Of a DNA stretch of 64,000 nucleotides, positions 5,421-50,542 are shown in pieces. Source of the stretch: Chloroflexota bacterium (GTDB lineage Bacteria; Chloroflexota; UBA6077; FW602-bin22; JACPRP01); the NCBI GenBank assembly GCA_016189905.1, contig JACPRP010000007.1:1-64000 (forward strand), written 5' to 3'. The notes below the pieces were generated by a model that was given only the letters and a program-made list of their open reading frames with translations, was not told where the DNA came from and searched no databases. How positions within the stretch are numbered: the stretch's first letter is position 1; each line of letters opens with the position of its first letter. The position numbers were made by a program, and so were the translations under genes.

Positions 5421-6803
5421 TTAATCCTGCCAGAATTTCCCGACGTAACCTAGCCGCTGGATCACTTCGCGGACCTCTAGCATCGCGGTGTACGTGGGCA
5501 AGACGTAGAGAGTACCCTCTTTCTCGACGCCGGCGAGTCCCGCGTGTAGCGCCCGCGGCAAATCCTTCTCGATTTCCACCTTCGATGGGTCAACCAGGGC
5601 ATATTTCAAGCGCACGGCCATATCTTCGGCCCGGGTTCCGGCGACGACCACACGCCGGGTCCTGGTCTGCAGAACCTCAAAATCGACATCCCAGAGCCAG
5701 GAGATATCCGTGCCATCGGCGATGTTGTCGTTGATCACTATCAGGAGGTCCTTCTGGGCACCATCAAGGAGTATCGTGCGCAGCACCTCGTTGAACCCGA
5801 TGGGATTCTTGACGAGCGCCAGGAAGATCAGCTTATCCTCGATTTGAATGCGTTCGATGCGGCCGAAAGCCGCCGAAAAACCCTCGATCCCAGCCTTGAC
5901 GTCTTCGAGGGGAAGGCCGAGGGCTAGGCCGGTGGCCGCGGCCGCCAGGGCATTGTAGACGTTGTACATCCCGGGGAGGCCGAGCCTCACGTTCAAGGGG
6001 CCCTGCGGGCCCCGCATGAGCAGCTCGGCGCCCACCGTCCCATTCAGCGAGATGCTATCGGCACCCAGGTCAGGTATTGGCCTCTTGGCTCCGCAATTCG
6101 GGCAGGAATACTTGCCGACGTGTCCGTAGAAAGCGACCGCGTAGGCATAGCGCGCGCCGCAGCTCACACAACTCTTCGAATCGGCGGCGTGTTCAAGCGT
6201 GGCGCGGCCGTAGCGCTCATCCTCGATGCCGAAATAGAGCACCGAAGCGGCGAGCGATTTCCCCAGGCTCGCCACCAGCGGGTCGTCGGCGTTGAGCACG
6301 ACACGCGCCGACGACGGCAACTGTCGCAGCGCCTTGCGCCAGAGGCCCGCGATGTAGTCGATCTCGCCGTAGCGGTCGAGCTGGTCACGGAAGAGGTTAT
6401 TGATGACGACGACCGTCGGTTTCGCTTCAGCCACCACCAGCGGCAGGTTGGCTTCATCCACCTCGAAGAGCCCGATATCGCCTCCGGGCCGGCCGGTTAT
6501 GCTCGACGAGTTCAGCAGCGCCGACGTCACCCCGCTGACCAGATTCGCGCCCGAGCGATTGTGCACCGGCTTCAGGCCGGCAACCTGGAGCATGTTGGAG
6601 ATCATGCGGGTGGTAGTGGTCTTGCCATTGGTGCCCGTGACGACGACACAACCCTGGCGTAAACGACCGGTCATTTTCCCGAGGGCGCCTGGATCGATCC
6701 TTCGCGTGATACCGCCGGGCAAGGTCGTGCCGCCCCCAAAATTCAACCGGCGGCTCAAGGAAGCCACCAGCTTACCAGCGACTATCGCAGCAGCCAACCG
6801 CAC
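5421..6803 (-). CDS. murT: Lipid II isoglutaminyl synthase, Mur ligase-like subunit MurT
   Basis: TGTNGKTTTTRM, C-SCGARY...YSCPNCGAKRP Cys4 insertion typical of MurT, DUF1727-like C-terminus. Confidence 0.92.
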   Translation of the reverse strand: MRLAAAIVAGKLVASLSRRLNFGGGTTLPGGITRRIDPGALGKMTGRLRQGCVVVTGTNGKTTTTRMISNMLQVAGLKPVHNRSGANLVSGVTSALLNSSSITGRPGGDIGLFEVDEANLPLVVAEAKPTVVVINNLFRDQLDRYGEIDYIAGLWRKALRQLPSSARVVLNADDPLVASLGKSLAASVLYFGIEDERYGRATLEHAADSKSCVSCGARYAYAVAFYGHVGKYSCPNCGAKRPIPDLGADSISLNGTVGAELLMRGPQGPLNVRLGLPGMYNVYNALAAAATGLALGLPLEDVKAGIEGFSAAFGRIERIQIEDKLIFLALVKNPIGFNEVLRTILLDGAQKDLLIVINDNIADGTDISWLWDVDFEVLQTRTRRVVVAGTRAEDMAVRLKYALVDPSKVEIEKDLPRALHAGLAGVEKEGTLYVLPTYTAMLEVREVIQRLGYVGKFWQD

Positions 6804-12820: not shown

Positions 12821-14143
12821 CTAGCCAATCTGAACCCCCGCGATCTGCACCAGAGATATGCCCACCAGGAACATGCTCAGAGCGATAAGCGCCGCGGTGG
12901 TGATCCAGGCCACGGCGTTGCCGAAGCGACCGTTGGTGTGACGGCCCATGATCCGGCGGTCGCTCGCGATCCTGATGGCGAACACCAGCACCACGGACAG
13001 AAGAATACCGTTGACATCCTGCGACAATATCATCACCGGGAAGAGGGGTAGATCGGGGATGAGCGCGACGAGCGCGCCGAAAGCGATGGCGAAGGCATAG
13101 AGCGTATGAAATGCCGGCGCTTCACGCCAGGACCGGCCGACGCCCGCCTCCCAACCGAACGCCTCGCACACCGTGTAGGAGGTAGCCAGGGGAAGAATCG
13201 AGGCCGCCAGCAGGGAAGCGTTGGCCAATCCAACGGCAAAGAGATAATGAGCCATTGGCCCGGCCAGAGGCTCCAGCGCCATCGCTGCCTGGGCCGCGTC
13301 GGTTATCCCGATTCCCCGAACGTACAGGGTGCTCGCCGTGGCGATGATTATGAAAAACGACACGATGTTGGTAATCAGGGCACCAAACAACACGTCGATT
13401 CGTGTCGTCGCGTACTCCCGTGGGCCGATGCCCTTGTCCACGACATAAGCCTGGATGAAGAACTGGCCCCAGGGGGTGATGGTCGTGCCAACCGTGGCGA
13501 TGAAGAGCAGAAGGTAGGCGGCATCCATCCGGAACGTGGGCGTCACCACCTCGTGGAACACCTGTCCCCAGGGGGGGCCGACCATCAGGCCCGACAGCGG
13601 ATAGGCCAGATACACCGCCGATAGCGCCAGAAAGACCTTTTCCACCGAGCGAAACGACCACTTGACGACCAGCAGCCATACGATCAGGGCGGCGATCGGC
13701 ACCGAGATCCAACGTGGGAGCCCAAATAGCTCGCCGGCGGCGGCGATGCCGGCGAACTCGGCGACCGTCGTCGCCAGGTTAGCGACTAGCGTACAGATCA
13801 TGGCGAACGCCGTCCATTTAACGCCGTACCGCTCACGGATGAGCGCGGCCAGCCCTTTGCCGGTCGCGGCGCCGGTACGCGCCCCCATCTCCTGTGTGAC
13901 GGCCAGGCTTATGGTAATCAGAGCCAACACCCACAGCAGAGAGTAGCCGTATTGCGCGCCAGCCACCGAATAGGTGCTGATTCCGCCGGCGTCGTTGTCG
14001 GCGTTGGCCGTGATGATGCCCGGGCCGATCAACGAGAGCACGGCGAGCAGGCGCAACCGCCAGGTTGAGATGCGGCCGAAGAAGCCCGAGGCAGCGGCGA
14101 CATGCGGTCGTCTCTCCTGTCGCTCCCTGGATGGCACTGTCAA
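12821..14143 (-). CDS. Nramp-family divalent metal transporter
   Basis: LIGPGIITANADNDAGGISTYSVAGAQYGYSLLW; 11-TM pattern. Confidence 0.9.
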   Translation of the reverse strand: MTVPSRERQERRPHVAAASGFFGRISTWRLRLLAVLSLIGPGIITANADNDAGGISTYSVAGAQYGYSLLWVLALITISLAVTQEMGARTGAATGKGLAALIRERYGVKWTAFAMICTLVANLATTVAEFAGIAAAGELFGLPRWISVPIAALIVWLLVVKWSFRSVEKVFLALSAVYLAYPLSGLMVGPPWGQVFHEVVTPTFRMDAAYLLLFIATVGTTITPWGQFFIQAYVVDKGIGPREYATTRIDVLFGALITNIVSFFIIIATASTLYVRGIGITDAAQAAMALEPLAGPMAHYLFAVGLANASLLAASILPLATSYTVCEAFGWEAGVGRSWREAPAFHTLYAFAIAFGALVALIPDLPLFPVMILSQDVNGILLSVVLVFAIRIASDRRIMGRHTNGRFGNAVAWITTAALIALSMFLVGISLVQIAGVQIG

Positions 14144-43690: not shown

Positions 43691-43742
43691 AGGGCACAAC
43701 GCTTGTGTCTTTGGAACGAATCTCGTATAATTTTGTTGTCAG

Positions 43743-43817
43743 GCCCCGTTAGCTCAGAGGATAGAGCACCGGCCTCCGGAGCCGGGTGCGGGCGTTCGAG
43801 TCGCCCACGGGGTACCA
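43743..43817 (+). tRNA. tRNA-Arg(CCG), left copy flanking the integrated element
   Basis: GCCCCGTTAGCTCAGAGGATAGAGCACCGGCCTCCGGAGCCGGGTGCGGGCGTTCGAGTCGCCCACGGGGTACCA folds as cloverleaf; anticodon CCG. Confidence 0.95.
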
Positions 43818-43871
43818 GAAAAGCTTGATATATCAGCGTTTTCTCGTCGCCAAGCCCATTTCTCCTCTACA

Positions 43872-43917
43872 TGACAGCATTTCCAAGTGCTGTCAAAGTG
43901 CTGTCAAAGTGCTGTCA
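43872..43917. repeat. Left-end TGCTGTCA repeats (putative integrase arm or excisionase sites)
   Basis: TGACAGCA-N8-TGCTGTCA-aag-TGCTGTCA-aag-TGCTGTCA. Confidence 0.75.
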
Positions 43918-44257
43918 AGGCTTGACTGCTTCCCAAAAACATAAACCCGCCGGTGTTGCTTCCGACGGGCGCTCGTGTTATGCTACTTCCGTCAGTCGCC
44001 TTAACCGACTGGCCACGCTCTGGGATGCTCCAACATCGCCAGGGCATCTTTCTTTTTTGATGTGCTATCCAGCTTCTACACCCTGGCCTAAAGGGATGCA
44101 ACCGCCATCAGCGCCACTGACAAGCGCTTATCTCCCGTTTGCTGCCAATATCGCCTATTATCGCCCATTGTCTCCCTTATCAACTTCGCACTATAGGTCT
44201 TATGACAAGTTAGCTTACTAACGCTTGTATTCTTGGATGTAAGGGCGTGAAGTCAGT

Positions 44258-44348
44258 ATTCAGCCCACGGGTGATAAGACGGGAGGGCATGCGCTGGCAG
44301 CTGTCGGACGTGGTCATCATTCAGCCCACGGGTGATAAGACGGGAGGG
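44258..44348. repeat. Two 30-bp direct repeats separated by 31 nt
   Basis: ATTCAGCCCACGGGTGATAAGACGGGAGGG at 44258-44287 and 44319-44348. Confidence 0.9.
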
Positions 44349-44547
44349 TGGCAGAAAGTCTCAACAAATCTCAACTTCCGGGAAACCTCATGGATGGCGA
44401 AAAGTCCAAGAAACCTCATGGATGGCTTGGTTGCTGAGACATGGTGCTCACTTCGGCGCCGCCATGCATAAACTATCCTAAAGTAGAGGATAGCGTACCG
44501 TTCGCATACAAGCACGCTTCGATGGCTTTTGCAAAGCCGCCGCATGG

Positions 44548-45048
44548 TTACAGTAAGTTACAACGCTCGCCTAGCTGGTTCTCGGTTCTAGTCAGTTTCT
44601 TGAAGTCGTCGAGCGTCATAACGACCAGGTCATCGGCGTGTCTTGTGCCCACGACGTGAAGCACGACCGTCGGCAGTTGCTCAGGGCTCGCCGCCATCGT
44701 CGCTTGCAGCATAGCTTCTAAACCAGCTTGCGCCAACCGCATTGTAAACATACGTGCCATGTCTCCTGTCCCGACAGGTATTCCACGAAAAGCCAGCCGT
44801 GGTACCTCGGACACTTCGGTTGCATCGTCATCACCTCCTACGTAGACAGGGCACGTAAGGCCACCAAAATCAGCAAAGGCGTAAGCGATGTTTCCACATA
44901 GGGCAGCATCACGACAAGTCTGACAAATAGTGGGCTCATTGCTTCCCTCGGATAGTTTTGGGCTTAACCTTGATGCCACGGGCGACAGGCTCTTTGGCGA
45001 TAGTGGGATGCCCTCATATTGCACCTCCCTTACTTTCAAGTAGGGCAT
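44548..45048 (-). CDS. Hypothetical protein of the integrative element
   Basis: MPYLKVREVQYEG..; overlaps 3' end of primase gene. Confidence 0.5.
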   Translation of the reverse strand: MPYLKVREVQYEGIPLSPKSLSPVASRLSPKLSEGSNEPTICQTCRDAALCGNIAYAFADFGGLTCPVYVGGDDDATEVSEVPRLAFRGIPVGTGDMARMFTMRLAQAGLEAMLQATMAASPEQLPTVVLHVVGTRHADDLVVMTLDDFKKLTRTENQLGERCNLL

Positions 45049-46843
45049 CCCACGCTGCGTCGTCAAGGTCCGGCTCGTCTCCATTTGTTGCTACCACGGG
45101 GCATGTGTAGGTAGAAGTCGTGGTAGCAACAAATCGCCATTGGTCGGGTCTGCTTCCCCGGCCCTCGATACGCTCAACAGCCCCAGCTCTGTGCAGCTCG
45201 TGGAGTGCTCGGCGCAGGTTCTCCCTGCCAGGCTTAGGCTCGTCGAACGCTTCCAGAAGCTGCGCTGTTGTCTGCCAGTCCTCGGCCAAGACTTCACGAA
45301 CACGCCGCTTCACGTCTTCCAGGGCTACGTCATCCGGGCGTCCCAATGCACGATATTGACCATCGATGCTTAGTTCTAGCAACAGTTTATCCGGGCTCTC
45401 GTCGAAGCGTGAACGAACGCTTAGATGCCGCCGGCGCTCGGCATCCTCTCGCAGCGAGACTGCGATATCACAGCTTCCGACGAAAGCGTGAGAACCGGCG
45501 TGGTCGGTGCCCTCGGCGCCGGCCGCCTTGCGACGGTGATGTAGCACGAGCAAGGCGCTGTTCAGTTCCCTGGCCAACATAATGAGGGAAGCCAGTTTTC
45601 GGTGCACTAGACCGGCGTCGTTTTCGTCGTAAATACTGAGAAACTCACGGGCTGTGTCCACGATAATCACGTCGGGCGCCAGGGCTCTCAGTCGTTCGCA
45701 CCACGTCTCAGGCTCAGCGCCATCCTGGAAGCCAAGGAGTAGATTACCGTGCGCTAGTTCGAGCTTGGCGATACGCTCTCGCCATTTTGGTTTGGGTTCT
45801 TCGCTGAGCCATGCTACACGCAGCCCGTCAAACAGCCAGTTTTTGACGGCGTGAGCAATGAGCGTTGTCTTCCCGGCTTTGGGACGGGCACTCAGCAGCG
45901 TGAATATCCCTCGCCCGACTAACCCGTCAACATCGAGTAGGGGGAACCACTCCACGGCGCTTGTGCTATCGCCGTTGGCCAGGTTATCGGCAGCGATGAA
46001 GCCGCTTAATGGGTCCGGATTTGCTGCTACCACGCCCTCAGTGTAGGGGTGCTCTGTGGTAGCAGCAAATTGTGGCTCGTAAAGCGCCGCAGCCTCTACC
46101 AGAAGCAGCAGCTCGTCTCTCGTGCCGCCACTGGCGAGCCAGTCCGATACATCGCCTTTGGGGGGCAGGTTCGGCACTTCGACGATACGCACCTGAGCAG
46201 CCCTGCCGTGAACACTGGCGGCTATCTGCTGGGCGTGGTGCCGCCCAGGGTCGTCATTGTCGGGCAGGATGGCTACCCGCCTGCCGCTAAGCTCAGCGCT
46301 GTACTCAGGTCGCCATTTCCCGGCACCCCCACAATTGGCTGTGGCCACCAGGCCAAGCCTGGCCAGGGCCTCAGCGTCCTTTTCGCCTTCGACGATGAAC
46401 ACCCACTCGCCAGGGTCCGCTTTTCGCAGCTCAGGAAGGCGATAAAGCACTCGTGGCGTGTCGTCGAGATGCCATATCCAGCCGCCGCTACCGTCGGGTC
46501 GCCGTTGGCGAAAATCCTTCGGCTCTAGCCGAACAACTTGATACAGAAGCTGTCCGTCGGCATTGCGATAGTCGTAGATCGCCGCTATCCTGCCCTGTGG
46601 TTTGTGACCGTTGCCGTTCGGCGTCTCGAACAAATCAGTCATCCTTAAGCCCAGAGTGTCGAGGATGCTTTCTGTCGGGCATCCTGCATGGCAATACATT
46701 AGCAATCTGCCGTCTTTCTCGGCAATACTCAGGGAGGCTTTCCGGTCATCGTGGCCAGGGCACTTCGCTTGATAGCCAGCGCCGTTTTGCCGGGCATCAG
46801 GGAACAGTGGTAGTAGGTCGCTCAGGTTCATCGTCATCACCAT
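45014..46843 (-). CDS. Primase-helicase: CHC2-type zinc finger, TOPRIM and RepA-like ATPase
   Basis: AKCPGHDDRKASLSI..LLMYCHAGC; VFIVEGEKDAEAL; LPDNDDPGRHHA; LLSARPKAGKTTLIAHAV; VIIVDTAREFLSI. Confidence 0.88.
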   Translation of the reverse strand: MVMTMNLSDLLPLFPDARQNGAGYQAKCPGHDDRKASLSIAEKDGRLLMYCHAGCPTESILDTLGLRMTDLFETPNGNGHKPQGRIAAIYDYRNADGQLLYQVVRLEPKDFRQRRPDGSGGWIWHLDDTPRVLYRLPELRKADPGEWVFIVEGEKDAEALARLGLVATANCGGAGKWRPEYSAELSGRRVAILPDNDDPGRHHAQQIAASVHGRAAQVRIVEVPNLPPKGDVSDWLASGGTRDELLLLVEAAALYEPQFAATTEHPYTEGVVAANPDPLSGFIAADNLANGDSTSAVEWFPLLDVDGLVGRGIFTLLSARPKAGKTTLIAHAVKNWLFDGLRVAWLSEEPKPKWRERIAKLELAHGNLLLGFQDGAEPETWCERLRALAPDVIIVDTAREFLSIYDENDAGLVHRKLASLIMLARELNSALLVLHHRRKAAGAEGTDHAGSHAFVGSCDIAVSLREDAERRRHLSVRSRFDESPDKLLLELSIDGQYRALGRPDDVALEDVKRRVREVLAEDWQTTAQLLEAFDEPKPGRENLRRALHELHRAGAVERIEGRGSRPDQWRFVATTTSTYTCPVVATNGDEPDLDDAAWDALLESKGGAI

Positions 46844-47349
46844 AGCGCTAGCTGCCGCTCGGCCACGTCCGCCGGTTCGGCGTCGAGCCGCACCACGTCA
46901 GTCACGTAGTCCCACTCCTCCCAGCGAACCGCCGTGAACCTCGCCAGGGGCACGAACCACTCAGGGCAACCGTCCGATGGTCGCAGCCAGCCTACACGCT
47001 CCACGTCGGCCAGGGGCAGGGCGTAGCATCGACCATCGGCGTCCAGTCGCACCAGCCACAGCCGTGCGCCGTGCTGTCGGGCGTAGCTCAGTATCGACGG
47101 TGGTATAGATGCGTGGGCCACGGTCTGGCGGTGGCGGTACGGCATCGCTAACACGGTCTCACCGAGCGGGGACGCCAGAACTAGTTTAGCGATGATGCAG
47201 GGGCGCCCACGCTTCGTCACCGCTAGCGCCACCGGGCGATACGGTGTATGATGTGGTTGACCGCTAACAACGGTCGTTGAACCTCGCCCGCTCCCCTGTC
47301 CCGCCTGCCAGCTAGCCAGGGTTGCGGGCGTCGTCGTTAGTCGGTGCAT
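46837..47349 (-). CDS. Hypothetical protein of the integrative element
   Basis: ORF in polycistronic array, overlaps neighbours. Confidence 0.55.
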   Translation of the reverse strand: MHRLTTTPATLASWQAGQGSGRGSTTVVSGQPHHTPYRPVALAVTKRGRPCIIAKLVLASPLGETVLAMPYRHRQTVAHASIPPSILSYARQHGARLWLVRLDADGRCYALPLADVERVGWLRPSDGCPEWFVPLARFTAVRWEEWDYVTDVVRLDAEPADVAERQLALW

Positions 47350-47486
47350 GGCGGCACCTCTTTCTTCTCGATTTCCTGTTTCTCTCGGATGAGCAGTTTC
47401 ACGGCTTCCGCAAGCGTCACGTTCTTCTGCTTCGCCACCCCCTTGAGGGTTCGCAACTCATCTTTGCTAAGAATCAGCGTCGTCAC
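47337..47486 (-). CDS. Small ribbon-helix-helix-like protein (not in supplied ORF track)
   Basis: GTG start with GGAGG RBS: VTTLILSKDELRTLKGVAKQKNVTLAEAVKLLIREKQEIEKKEVPPCTD*. Confidence 0.65.
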   Translation of the reverse strand: MTTLILSKDELRTLKGVAKQKNVTLAEAVKLLIREKQEIEKKEVPPCTD

Positions 47487-47506
47487 GTTCGCACCTCCAA
47501 CAAAAA

Positions 47507-47529
47507 AACTGAGTTCACTAAACTCAGTT
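47507..47529. promoter_or_regulatory. Palindromic operator upstream of RHH-like gene
   Basis: AACTGAGTT-cacta-AACTCAGTT; followed by GGCGAA-type repeats at 47533-47566. Confidence 0.6.
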
Positions 47530-47616
47530 TACAATTGGCGAATTGGCGAAATGGCGTTTCGCCAACTACACGTTTCAGCTTTGCAGATGAATTATTCTGG
47601 CCGTGTCATTCCTAGC

Positions 47617-48267
47617 CTAGTCTTCCGGGTATGTGATGTCCAAGACGTACCTGTCGAATGTGCGAATGTCGATTCCCGCCCTCTTACAAGCCGTGGTCTT
47701 GAACTCCCCAGCGTCGATAAGCTCCTGAGCCTCTCTCACTCGGTCCAGCGTCCCGCCGTGAGCACCGTACTTCGTGTTCGTGGCGCTCGCTGCCTCTGGC
47801 CCCTTCGCTGTCTCTCGCCCTTCCTCGGTAGAAGCGGCATCCGCCCCCAGGTATCCGTCTATCGCCGCCTTGCTCTCAGGCCAAGTCTTGCTTATCTCAG
47901 CCAGCAGTTTGATAAAGTAGCCTTTTGCCGGAGGGAAGCAACATTCCGCCGTCACACTGGTTATGTGTTCGGGGTCTCTCAGTACCCATTTGAACGTGAT
48001 TGCCGGGCCACAATCCTGCTCTAGCCGGGGGTCTCTCCCTTCGATATGTGGGACTGAGCAAGTGTAATCGATAAATCCCGACGCTCGGTTCCAACGCTCA
48101 TCAGGGTATGTGGCGTTTGGGCATTTCACGATGAACGGCCCTAAACAACCGCTCCCGCCAATACACGGAAGTCTGAAGTGTTCCGTGATATGACGGTCCC
48201 TCGTGGCATCGTCGAGGAACCTAATGATATACTCAGGGGATGCGGAAATGGGGAACGTAACTTTCAA
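47617..48267 (-). CDS. Hypothetical protein of the integrative element
   Basis: ORF; possible C-terminal helix-turn-helix (LIDAGEFKTTACKRAGIDIRTFDRYV). Confidence 0.55.
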   Translation of the reverse strand: MKVTFPISASPEYIIRFLDDATRDRHITEHFRLPCIGGSGCLGPFIVKCPNATYPDERWNRASGFIDYTCSVPHIEGRDPRLEQDCGPAITFKWVLRDPEHITSVTAECCFPPAKGYFIKLLAEISKTWPESKAAIDGYLGADAASTEEGRETAKGPEAASATNTKYGAHGGTLDRVREAQELIDAGEFKTTACKRAGIDIRTFDRYVLDITYPED

Positions 48268-48391
48268 TGTGCACCTCCAACCAGGTTAATGAAGCTTGCC
48301 GGGCTCTCTCGTGGGTTGGCACAAGAGACTTGCGGGCTTTGGCCAAAGCCACCCGGCATCAGGTCAATTATACGGTTGCACGCCAGCTAGT

Positions 48392-48697
48392 TCAAGCTTC
48401 CTCTATCGCCATAGAAGGGAACGCCTCGCTTACATCGACTTGTTTCTCCGGCAGGTCCTCGTACAACTCATAAGCGGCGTCCTCGTCGAGCGGCTCTATT
48501 CTGTCCCACTCCCCCTGCCATCGTGTCAGATGCACCGCAAAATAGCGGCCCTTTGGCGTGCGGTATAGGAACGTGTTTCGCCCGTGCCGCTCGAAGTTGT
48601 GTCCATCCCAATACTCGTCATCGGCAATCAGGATGCTATCCGCCACTCGGTAGCGAACTCTGCCTATGACTTGCTCCATGCTTTCGTTCGGTTGCAT
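48392..48697 (-). CDS. Small acidic hypothetical protein
   Basis: IADDEYWDGHNFERHGRNTFLYRTPKGRYFAVHLTRWQGE. Confidence 0.55.
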   Translation of the reverse strand: MQPNESMEQVIGRVRYRVADSILIADDEYWDGHNFERHGRNTFLYRTPKGRYFAVHLTRWQGEWDRIEPLDEDAAYELYEDLPEKQVDVSEAFPSMAIEEA

Positions 48698-48700
48698 TGC

Positions 48701-48913
48701 TTACCTCCGTTTCCATTCTGCTTTGATAGGGATATCCACAGTGAAGACGTACATGTTGTGTCCAGCGTGTCCGCAATGAGCCGACACTTTCACGAAACCG
48801 TCTCCCTCGGCTTCATAGTGGACCTTCGTCAGATACTCGCCGCACGTATCGCACCTGTGGCAACGACAGCGCACCAGGGCCAGCGCCGCTTCAATGATTC
48901 GATCATCGTACAT
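48701..48913 (-). CDS. Small Cys/His-rich (zinc-ribbon-like) hypothetical protein
   Basis: CRCHRCDTCGEYLTKV..SAHCGHAGHNMYVF. Confidence 0.5.
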   Translation of the reverse strand: MYDDRIIEAALALVRCRCHRCDTCGEYLTKVHYEAEGDGFVKVSAHCGHAGHNMYVFTVDIPIKAEWKRR

Positions 48914-49076
48914 CGTCTTCTCTCTCCTCCTACAAATCTGTTTGGTCCATCGAAACAGTGACATTTTGTGACTCACCACGGCGTTACATTGTCTGTCGCC
49001 GTAGATTGCGGTACGGGTTTAGTATTCCTTTGGTGATATTTTCACTGACTGACACACCCTGAAGGCGGGCCAACCC

Positions 49077-50216
49077 TTACACACTCATGGCGCTACCCCC
49101 TTTCAACACACCCTCCAGGGCTTCCACCGCCAACCTATCGCCATCGCCAAGAACGTGCTGATAGATGTTCAACGTCACCGCCGCCGTCGAGTGTCCCGCT
49201 CTCTGCTGCGCCACTTTTACGGGAACACCGCTCATCGCCAGGAGAGATAAGCTGATATGCCGCAAGTCGTGAATGCGGATGGTCGGCAGTCCCAGATGGC
49301 CACAGAGCCACCATAAGCCCCGTCGCACATTAGACGGGGTCGGCGTGGTTCCTGCCTCAGTGACAAAGATACGCTCGCCGCCCTTCCAGTTCGCACCCGC
49401 TTTGAGCTTCCAAGCAGCAACCCGTCCTTTCTGGCGTCTCAGCGCTTCCATTCCCCACAGAGGCAAGGTGATACTTCGGACTCCCGCCGCCGTCTTGGGC
49501 TTCGATTCCACGGGCTTGTTGTGGACGTAGGTAATCTGCCGCTCGATTCGGATAGCGCCCGTCTCCCAATTCACATCCTGGTTGCACAGTCCGAACGCTT
49601 CCCCCATTCGACAGCCGGATGCAAGAAGGAATCCCAGCAGATAACCGTGGTTCTTGCCCTCGCCGTTCAGCATCGCTTTCAGGAACCCCGTTATCTGCTC
49701 CTGTGTCCACAGAGAGGGGGTCTTGGGCTCTGCCTTGGGGGTATCGACAAGCTCAGCTACGTTGTTTGCCACCATTCCCCATTTTGCAGCGTCGCTAAGC
49801 GCCTTGTGCAAGACACGGTGACATATCTGCACGGTTCGCTTTCCTGTCGTCTTGTGCAGCACAGCGTAAGTTGTGGCGAGCCTCAGCGAAGTGAGCTTGG
49901 CTAAGTGGACTTTGCCCAGGGCAGGAACGATGTGCAGCCTTATGACGCAATCGTAACGGTCCGCCGTCGATGGCCGTAAACGGGGTTTTGCCTGGTTGAA
50001 CCAGTCGTCGAGATAGTCCCCCAGGGTCAGCCGTGAAGAGGCAGGAAAGCCGCCGCCCCTTCTCGCCTGTTCGCCCAGCTTTCTGAGCTTCTGGGCCACC
50101 TCGGAACGGGTCTTGCCGTAGGCGGTCTTACGGATACCTTCAACCTGTAGGGCGCCTTGCCATCTGCCATCTTTTCTCTGTGTGATCGAACCTTCACCGT
50201 GAGCACGAATGGACAC
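49077..50216 (-). CDS. int: Tyrosine recombinase/integrase
   Basis: IRIHDLRHISLSLLAMSGVPVKVAQQRAGHSTAAVTLNIYQHV catalytic R-H..H-Y; N-terminal SAM-like/AP2-type arm domain. Confidence 0.94.
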   Translation of the reverse strand: MSIRAHGEGSITQRKDGRWQGALQVEGIRKTAYGKTRSEVAQKLRKLGEQARRGGGFPASSRLTLGDYLDDWFNQAKPRLRPSTADRYDCVIRLHIVPALGKVHLAKLTSLRLATTYAVLHKTTGKRTVQICHRVLHKALSDAAKWGMVANNVAELVDTPKAEPKTPSLWTQEQITGFLKAMLNGEGKNHGYLLGFLLASGCRMGEAFGLCNQDVNWETGAIRIERQITYVHNKPVESKPKTAAGVRSITLPLWGMEALRRQKGRVAAWKLKAGANWKGGERIFVTEAGTTPTPSNVRRGLWWLCGHLGLPTIRIHDLRHISLSLLAMSGVPVKVAQQRAGHSTAAVTLNIYQHVLGDGDRLAVEALEGVLKGGSAMSV

Positions 50217-50240
50217 CGCTTTTCCTTTCCGATGCCCCGG

Positions 50241-50272
50241 TGACAGCATTAAAAGTGCTGTCAAAGTGCTGT
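50241..50272. repeat. Right-end TGCTGTCA repeats matching 43872-43917
   Basis: TGACAGCA-N7-TGCTGTCA-aag-TGCTGT. Confidence 0.75.
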
Positions 50273-50332
50273 AGAGGGTCCTTGGCGCATTTGGCGAGAG
50301 AGAATTGCTTGATATATCAGCGTTTTTGTCAG

Positions 50333-50407
50333 GCCCCGTTAGCTCAGAGGATAGAGCACCGGCCTCCGGAGCCGGGTGCGGGCGTTCGAGTCGCCCACGG
50401 GGTACCA
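50333..50407 (+). tRNA. tRNA-Arg(CCG), right copy flanking the integrated element
   Basis: Identical to 43743-43817. Confidence 0.95.
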
Positions 50408-50542
50408 GTTATTCCCCTATTCAGAGTTGAACTAGCCGCCTCTTCGCACAAAGGAGCGTAGCCGAAGTGGTCTCCAGGTTGGTGTCCGCCACGATAGTCA
50501 TCACCATCACGTCTCGACGACGCGGACCAGAAAGGAGCCGAG

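Follow-up and report, generated by a model that had tools for sequence, protein, structure and literature searches.

A compact candidate integrative replicon with a complete tRNA-Arg(CCG) gene at each end and palindromes inside its primase gene in a Chloroflexota bacterium

Results and Discussion

Gene content of the locus

We analyzed a 64,000-nucleotide stretch of a Chloroflexota genome (contig JACPRP010000007.1; hereafter the window). It contains two complete tRNA-Arg(CCG) genes identified by ARAGORN at 43743-43817 and 50333-50407, both on the plus strand, which are enclosed by an 86-nt direct repeat (99% identity) with 83 identical nucleotides (43736-43818 and 50326-50408). The two copies are 6.5 kb apart, and the whole element is about 6.6 kb long. 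Its eight ORFs, all on the minus strand, comprise the genes for a tyrosine integrase and a primase-helicase and six shorter ones. The features are as follows:

43736-43818, plus strand: attL, the complete tRNA-Arg(CCG) gene with flanks; host promoter region in front (TATAAT at about 43727)
43823-43842, plus strand: 20-bp repeat GCTTGATATATCAGCGTTTT on the inner side of the left tRNA; also present at 50307-50326
43885-43920, plus strand: left arm-like sites, three copies of AAGTGCTGTC, 11-bp phasing
44250-44430, no strand: non-coding; contains short direct repeats of 36 nt and 22 nt, one pair of each
44548-45084, minus strand: p178, overlapping the 3' end of the primase gene out of frame; CxxC-type cysteines; start uncertain
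45014-46843, minus strand: primase-helicase with CHC2 zinc ribbon, TOPRIM, RecA-like AAA_25 and C-terminal winged helix
45081-45136, no strand: palindrome 2, 18-nt arms and 20-nt loop, at primase residues ~569-587, after the winged helix; DNA fold z -5.9
46019-46070, no strand: palindrome 1, 16-nt arms and 20-nt loop, at primase residues ~258-275, in the TOPRIM-AAA linker; DNA fold z -4.7
46837-47349, minus strand: p170, conserved replication-module protein; weak restriction-endonuclease/Holliday-resolvase-like fold
47337-47486, minus strand: p49, RHH (CopG/RelB-like) regulator, first gene of the p49-p170-primase operon
about 47536-47566, no strand: GGCGAA repeats forming the inverted repeat ttggcgaattggcgaaatggcgtttcgccaa upstream of p49, read directly
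47617-48267, minus strand: p216, weakly similar to an ORF at the same place in the G269 element (L253)
48392-48697, minus strand: p101, with one homolog (48% identity) in 300 Chloroflexota genomes
48701-48979, minus strand: p92, cysteine-rich, a probable zinc ribbon
49077-50264, minus strand: tyrosine integrase
50251-50273, plus strand: right arm-like sites, two copies of AAAGTGCTGTC, 11-bp phasing
50326-50408, plus strand: attR, the complete tRNA-Arg(CCG) gene with flanks; element DNA in front

No third copy of tRNA-Arg(CCG) was found in the host genome (G000; 125 contigs, 86% complete), the next-best matches (78-79%) being other arginine isoacceptors. The inner repeat GCTTGATATATCAGCGTTTT flanks the tRNA on both inner sides, so that a joined attP would have the order repeat-tRNA-repeat, and it may have a bearing on the capture of the whole tRNA. 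The short repeats at 44250-44430 could be an alternative origin or a regulatory site.

An earlier reading of the sequence alone had proposed a compact integrative element in tRNA-Arg(CCG), and the 83-bp repeat with two whole tRNAs, the intact integrase and the replication module agree with this proposal; likewise, no conjugation or capsid genes were recognized in the element. Not all relatives carry both tRNAs: in G001, a genome of the same family, pgsA is followed by a short insertion and then by a single tRNA-Arg(CCG), the 5' flank of which matches the left flank in the window. On the 3' side, the match of G001 to the right flank is about 12 bases longer than its match to the element DNA, and beyond this the right flank of G001 is not syntenic; as the homolog of lepB, which lies to the right of the element in the window, is on another contig in G001, the right host side is weakly supported.

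Related elements and their tRNA target

The comparison set comprised twelve delimited elements with related integrases, including the one in the window; eleven are from Chloroflexota and one (L165) is from Desulfofundulus. Seven elements have a partial tRNA copy (L165, L213, L253, L254, L257, L271 and L288), in which the identity begins at tRNA position 27-34, in the anticodon stem-loop; in L254 the repeat block extends through a neighboring complete tRNA-Ser. The five others, hosted by the window genome, G004 (L207), G168 (L263 and L264) and G016 (L278), carry an essentially whole copy, which spans tRNA positions -6 to 76 in the window element, 2-75 in L263, 0-76 in L264, 4-75 in L278, and, in L207, the 3' part of which has diverged, -5 to 58. 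The complete tRNA at both ends, an observation of the sequence-only reading that ARAGORN bears out for both copies, is thus not unique to the window element. Since the integrases are related, the same crossover at the anticodon loop is probable for all twelve elements, the whole-copy ones included. Whole-tRNA attP sites have precedents in actinomycete elements; a non-exhaustive search of the open-access literature yielded no direct precedent.

The copies of tRNA-Arg(TCG) at the ends of L207 in G004 lie at 13719-13795 and 6428-6504. The one behind the host promoter has mismatched acceptor and T arms. The copy behind element DNA is the sole intact tRNA-Arg(TCG) that this genome yielded, which is consistent with reliance of G004 on an element-side promoter for this tRNA. 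The damaged 3' third of the host-promoter copy resembles the 3' end of tRNA-Arg(CCG), suggesting target switching between arginine tRNAs. The two G168 elements, L263 (6922-11441) and L264 (5429-10182), are 4.4-4.7 kb long and reside in tRNA-Val and tRNA-Pro. They contain little beyond integrase and primase genes, and each is bounded on both sides by a complete or almost complete tRNA copy.

Integrase and arm-like repeats

The right tRNA and the start of the integrase gene are about 70 bp apart, an adjacency that had been noted from the sequence alone. The gene product matches Phage_integrase (E = 9e-14) and SAM_3, and the motifs that hold its catalytic set (R219, K255/257, H332, R335, H358 and Y368) are intact.

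Arm-like repeats of the AAAGTGCTGTC type, absent from the sequence-only reading, are found at equal distance from the tRNA at either end of the element, and the same motif also frames the elements of G004 (L207) and G269 (L253); several other related elements have different but equally phased repeats readable at both ends, while base shuffling yields an expectation of 0.05 phased arm-like repeats per element. Their presence at both ends supports functional element boundaries.

The side of the integrase and its reading direction relative to the tRNA vary among the window element, L207, L263, L264 and L278; the arms hold their orientation relative to the integrase in L207 and the window element. 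Either orientation may be possible because the anticodon loop (TCCGGA) is nearly palindromic. Elsewhere in the host genome (contig C86; L003 and L289) an integrase-like ORF of 222 aa, adjoining a tRNA-Arg(CCT)/Glu/Thr cluster, is 33% identical to the C-terminal part of the element's integrase over 181 aa; it is probably a remnant.

We rejected, as the main reading, a tandem duplication of the host tRNA with the element lying in between, since the same target is seen in relatives with a partial copy and the arm-like repeats frame the element.

Replication module

The primase-helicase proposed earlier was confirmed by the CHC2 and TOPRIM signatures, a match to AAA_25 (E = 3e-12) and a structural model whose best fold matches are T7 gp4 and Twinkle (E about 1e-16 to 1e-14); the replication module is of the plasmid/phage type. 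A sequence search of PDB with the primase gave no match. The C-terminal part (residues 503-571) is modeled as helix-helix-helix-strand-strand, a topology consistent with a weak GntR match in this primase and with clear winged-helix matches in L254.

The model of p170 has a confident core (mean pLDDT 76) and weakly matches restriction-endonuclease or Holliday-resolvase folds (best PDB E = 0.03); no conserved ExK motif was seen, and therefore we claim no activity. No match to p170 was found in phage or plasmid records, and its alignment is too variable for scanning contigs. The 49-aa p49 has a weak RHH-type match (DUF6290, RelB-like). RHH-type genes occupy the same position in relatives, with L208 having an HTH protein there, and the order RHH-type gene, p170, primase is found in the window, G004, G382 (L206) and G377 (L255), as well as in G269 (L253), where the primase is a PrimPol. 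An RHH-like regulator with an operator and iteron-like GGCGAA repeats had been suggested from the sequence; the repeats are real and the regulator is in line with the weak RHH match. The GGCGAA inverted repeat is the probable operator of p49, and the repeats are better read in this way than as an origin, for which the paired primase palindromes described below are stronger candidates.

In L253 (9474-10256) and L254 (6466-8922) a PrimPol primase is present instead of CHC2-TOPRIM; in L254 this primase is fused with AAA_25 and a winged helix. These PrimPol sequences indicate exchange of the primase module among related elements.

Palindromes inside the primase gene

Both palindromes in the primase gene fold better than shuffled sequences. 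They have a common core, TTTGYTGCTACCAC, which occurs without mismatches nowhere else in the window, and its hairpin pattern is found at only these two sites in the whole genome. Of the disordered segments predicted in the primase, the two largest (residues 259-300 and 575-592) are those that the palindromes overlap.

Across 155 homologous primase genes, most of which have no palindrome at the stringency used, 29 hairpins were found vs 4.0 in synonymous-codon shuffles, an approximately sevenfold excess. The hairpin density is 0.086 per kb in primases, 0.016 per kb in integrases (one hairpin in 54 genes) and 0.027 per kb in further long ORFs from the same loci. By our reading of the domain coordinates, about 24 of the 29 hairpins are situated either in the TOPRIM-AAA interval or behind the AAA/winged-helix part. 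Where a gene has at least two palindromes, these in most cases have 10-36 nt in common, compared to a between-gene mean of 5.3, the exceptions being mostly close relatives. In a broader scan, repeated 12-mers were only modestly enriched (direct, 88 vs 58; inverted, 61 vs 37), and hence the signal resides in the hairpins. Paired element-specific palindromes in the two primase linkers were observed in the window, L263, L264, L206, L262 and L145.

We infer that the palindromes form a replication origin embedded within the gene of its own initiator, and we would call the paired intragenic palindromes, which the earlier reading did not mention, the unexpected part of the finding; no description of origins inside primase genes was found in a non-exhaustive search of the open-access literature. 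A generalization, which we offer tentatively and to which we give less than even odds, is that many mobile primase-helicase genes carry their own origin as paired, fast-changing palindromes in disordered linkers flanking the helicase/winged-helix part, so that each such gene would be a transferable replicon, complete in itself and of distinct specificity.

Small ORFs

The four remaining small ORFs (p178, p216, p101 and p92) obtained no function from Pfam, PHROGs, NCBIfam or PADLOC, and the suggestion that such ORFs are candidates for anti-defence or packaging roles finds no support in these databases. The PHROGs matches of the small ORFs are weak and limited to families without known function; PADLOC identified no defence protein among them, its sole match being that of the primase TOPRIM region to a DnaG-like accessory. 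In particular, p178 has no family match and no match in the collected related loci, p216 has none in 400 Chloroflexota genomes or IMG/VR, and p101 has no phage match.

Proposed mechanism and alternative explanations

The best explanation, to which we assign a probability of about 0.8, is an integrative replicon of about 6.6 kb with a whole-tRNA attP, crossover at the anticodon loop, its own replication module, a palindrome origin and no transfer genes. The tyrosine integrase would recombine an attP carrying essentially the whole tRNA-Arg(CCG) with the host tRNA gene; crossover would occur at the anticodon loop, a point suggested by the relatives, the boundaries themselves being observed, and with such an attP the host would keep a working tRNA on each side. 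The excised circle would replicate from its own module: p49 may repress the p49-p170-primase operon via the GGCGAA inverted repeat, in an autoregulatory manner, and the primase-helicase may open and prime the origin formed by the two palindromes in its own gene, which its C-terminal winged helix would recognize. As there are no transfer genes, the element would move with a helper or passively.

A different account of the palindromes is that they are sites of module exchange, or mobile palindromes similar to the Rickettsia palindromic element, tolerated only in disordered linkers. They do bracket the RecA-like/winged-helix module, and primase similarity often ends near the first palindrome; on the other hand, similarity among copies is largely confined to the same gene or to very close elements, and the window motif does not recur elsewhere in the host genome, unlike a dispersed mobile palindrome. 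We regard this account as possible but somewhat doubtful.

Other explanations concern the element as a whole. It might be a helper-dependent phage satellite similar to PICMI, which excises and replicates itself and is packaged by a helper phage, as its size (6.6 kb vs about 6.1 kb) and its set of an integrase, a primase, a small regulator and few other ORFs would suggest (PMC10803314). However, it has no AlpA and no DUF3987/DUF5906 primase, the site is not fis, no packaging or capsid-remodelling gene was recognized in it, and p170 is without a match in phage or plasmid records, which makes a satellite unlikely. Still less probable is a mobilisable element (IME) with an unrecognised relaxase or oriT: two relatives encode, at the p49 position, RHH proteins with weak similarity to the relaxosome accessories NikA (E = 3e-5) and TraY (E = 0.01), but no relaxase family match was found in the window element, RHH proteins are mostly repressors, and p49 opens the replication operon. 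We consider it equally improbable that the second tRNA is an old duplication and the element a dead, immobile remnant. The sequence comes from a metagenome-assembled genome and provides no proof of mobility, the small ORFs have no assigned function, and p178 overlaps the primase out of frame; yet the integrase and primase frames are intact together with their catalytic motifs, the arms are preserved at both ends, and no base differs between the 83-bp repeats.

Under the preferred reading, an integrative replicon, the locus belongs to a family of very compact integrative replicons found in Chloroflexota, the smallest of which measure about 4.4 kb and encode hardly more than an integrase and a primase. 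In several members the tRNA gene is carried essentially whole, and elements of this class are excluded by design by one standard island finder; G004 suggests that a host can become dependent on its element for an intact tRNA. Should the palindromes be origins, the primase gene alone could reveal the origin of many uncharacterised integrated elements.

Comparison with known systems

Islander-type tDNA islands are similar to this element in having a tyrosine integrase, a tRNA target and an anticodon-centred crossover class; Islander looks for a single tRNA accompanied by a single fragment, discarding BLAST hits inside a full-length tRNA gene (PMC4383910), and such a search would therefore miss the whole-tRNA class. 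AICEs such as pSAM2 likewise combine an integrase with a replication gene and integrate in tRNA genes, but they are described as entering the tRNA 3' end (PMC3218068) and the Rep type is different here, with no Pfam match to an FtsK/SpoIIIE-type Tra protein, RepSA, RepAM or Prim-Pol in the window element.

PICMI elements, of about 6.1 kb with int, alpA and a primase, share the size of about 6 kb and the core of integrase, primase and small regulator (PMC10803314). The differences are the primase family (CHC2-TOPRIM-AAA_25 here), the tRNA-Arg site instead of fis and the lack of a known helper; AlpA/HTH_17 had no match in the scanned window proteins. The alpha protein of P4 also combines a TOPRIM primase with a helicase and, for origin binding, a winged-helix domain (PMC4234260). 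It differs in its helicase domain, which here is RecA/gp4-like, and no PHROG matches to the P4 core genes psu, delta and sid were found in the element. P4 alpha binds iterons outside its gene.

In the pRN1 family of archaeal plasmids, a small repressor gene and a primase-helicase with a C-terminal winged helix make a minimal replicon, and a stem-loop required for replication is the proposed origin (PMC4234260). The primase of pRN1 is of the archaeo-eukaryotic type and its helicase of SF3, whereas here CHC2-TOPRIM and a RecA-like domain are found; the element, unlike pRN1, has an integrase, and its palindromes are inside the gene, the pRN1 stem-loop being downstream. Stem-loops are present in the element, with a putative origin role. 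It is best labeled as an integrative replicon that resembles pRN1, P4 and PICMI and is a member of none of them; pRN1 is the nearest working analogue, and the ssi hairpins of RSF1010 (described in PMC4234260) are another.
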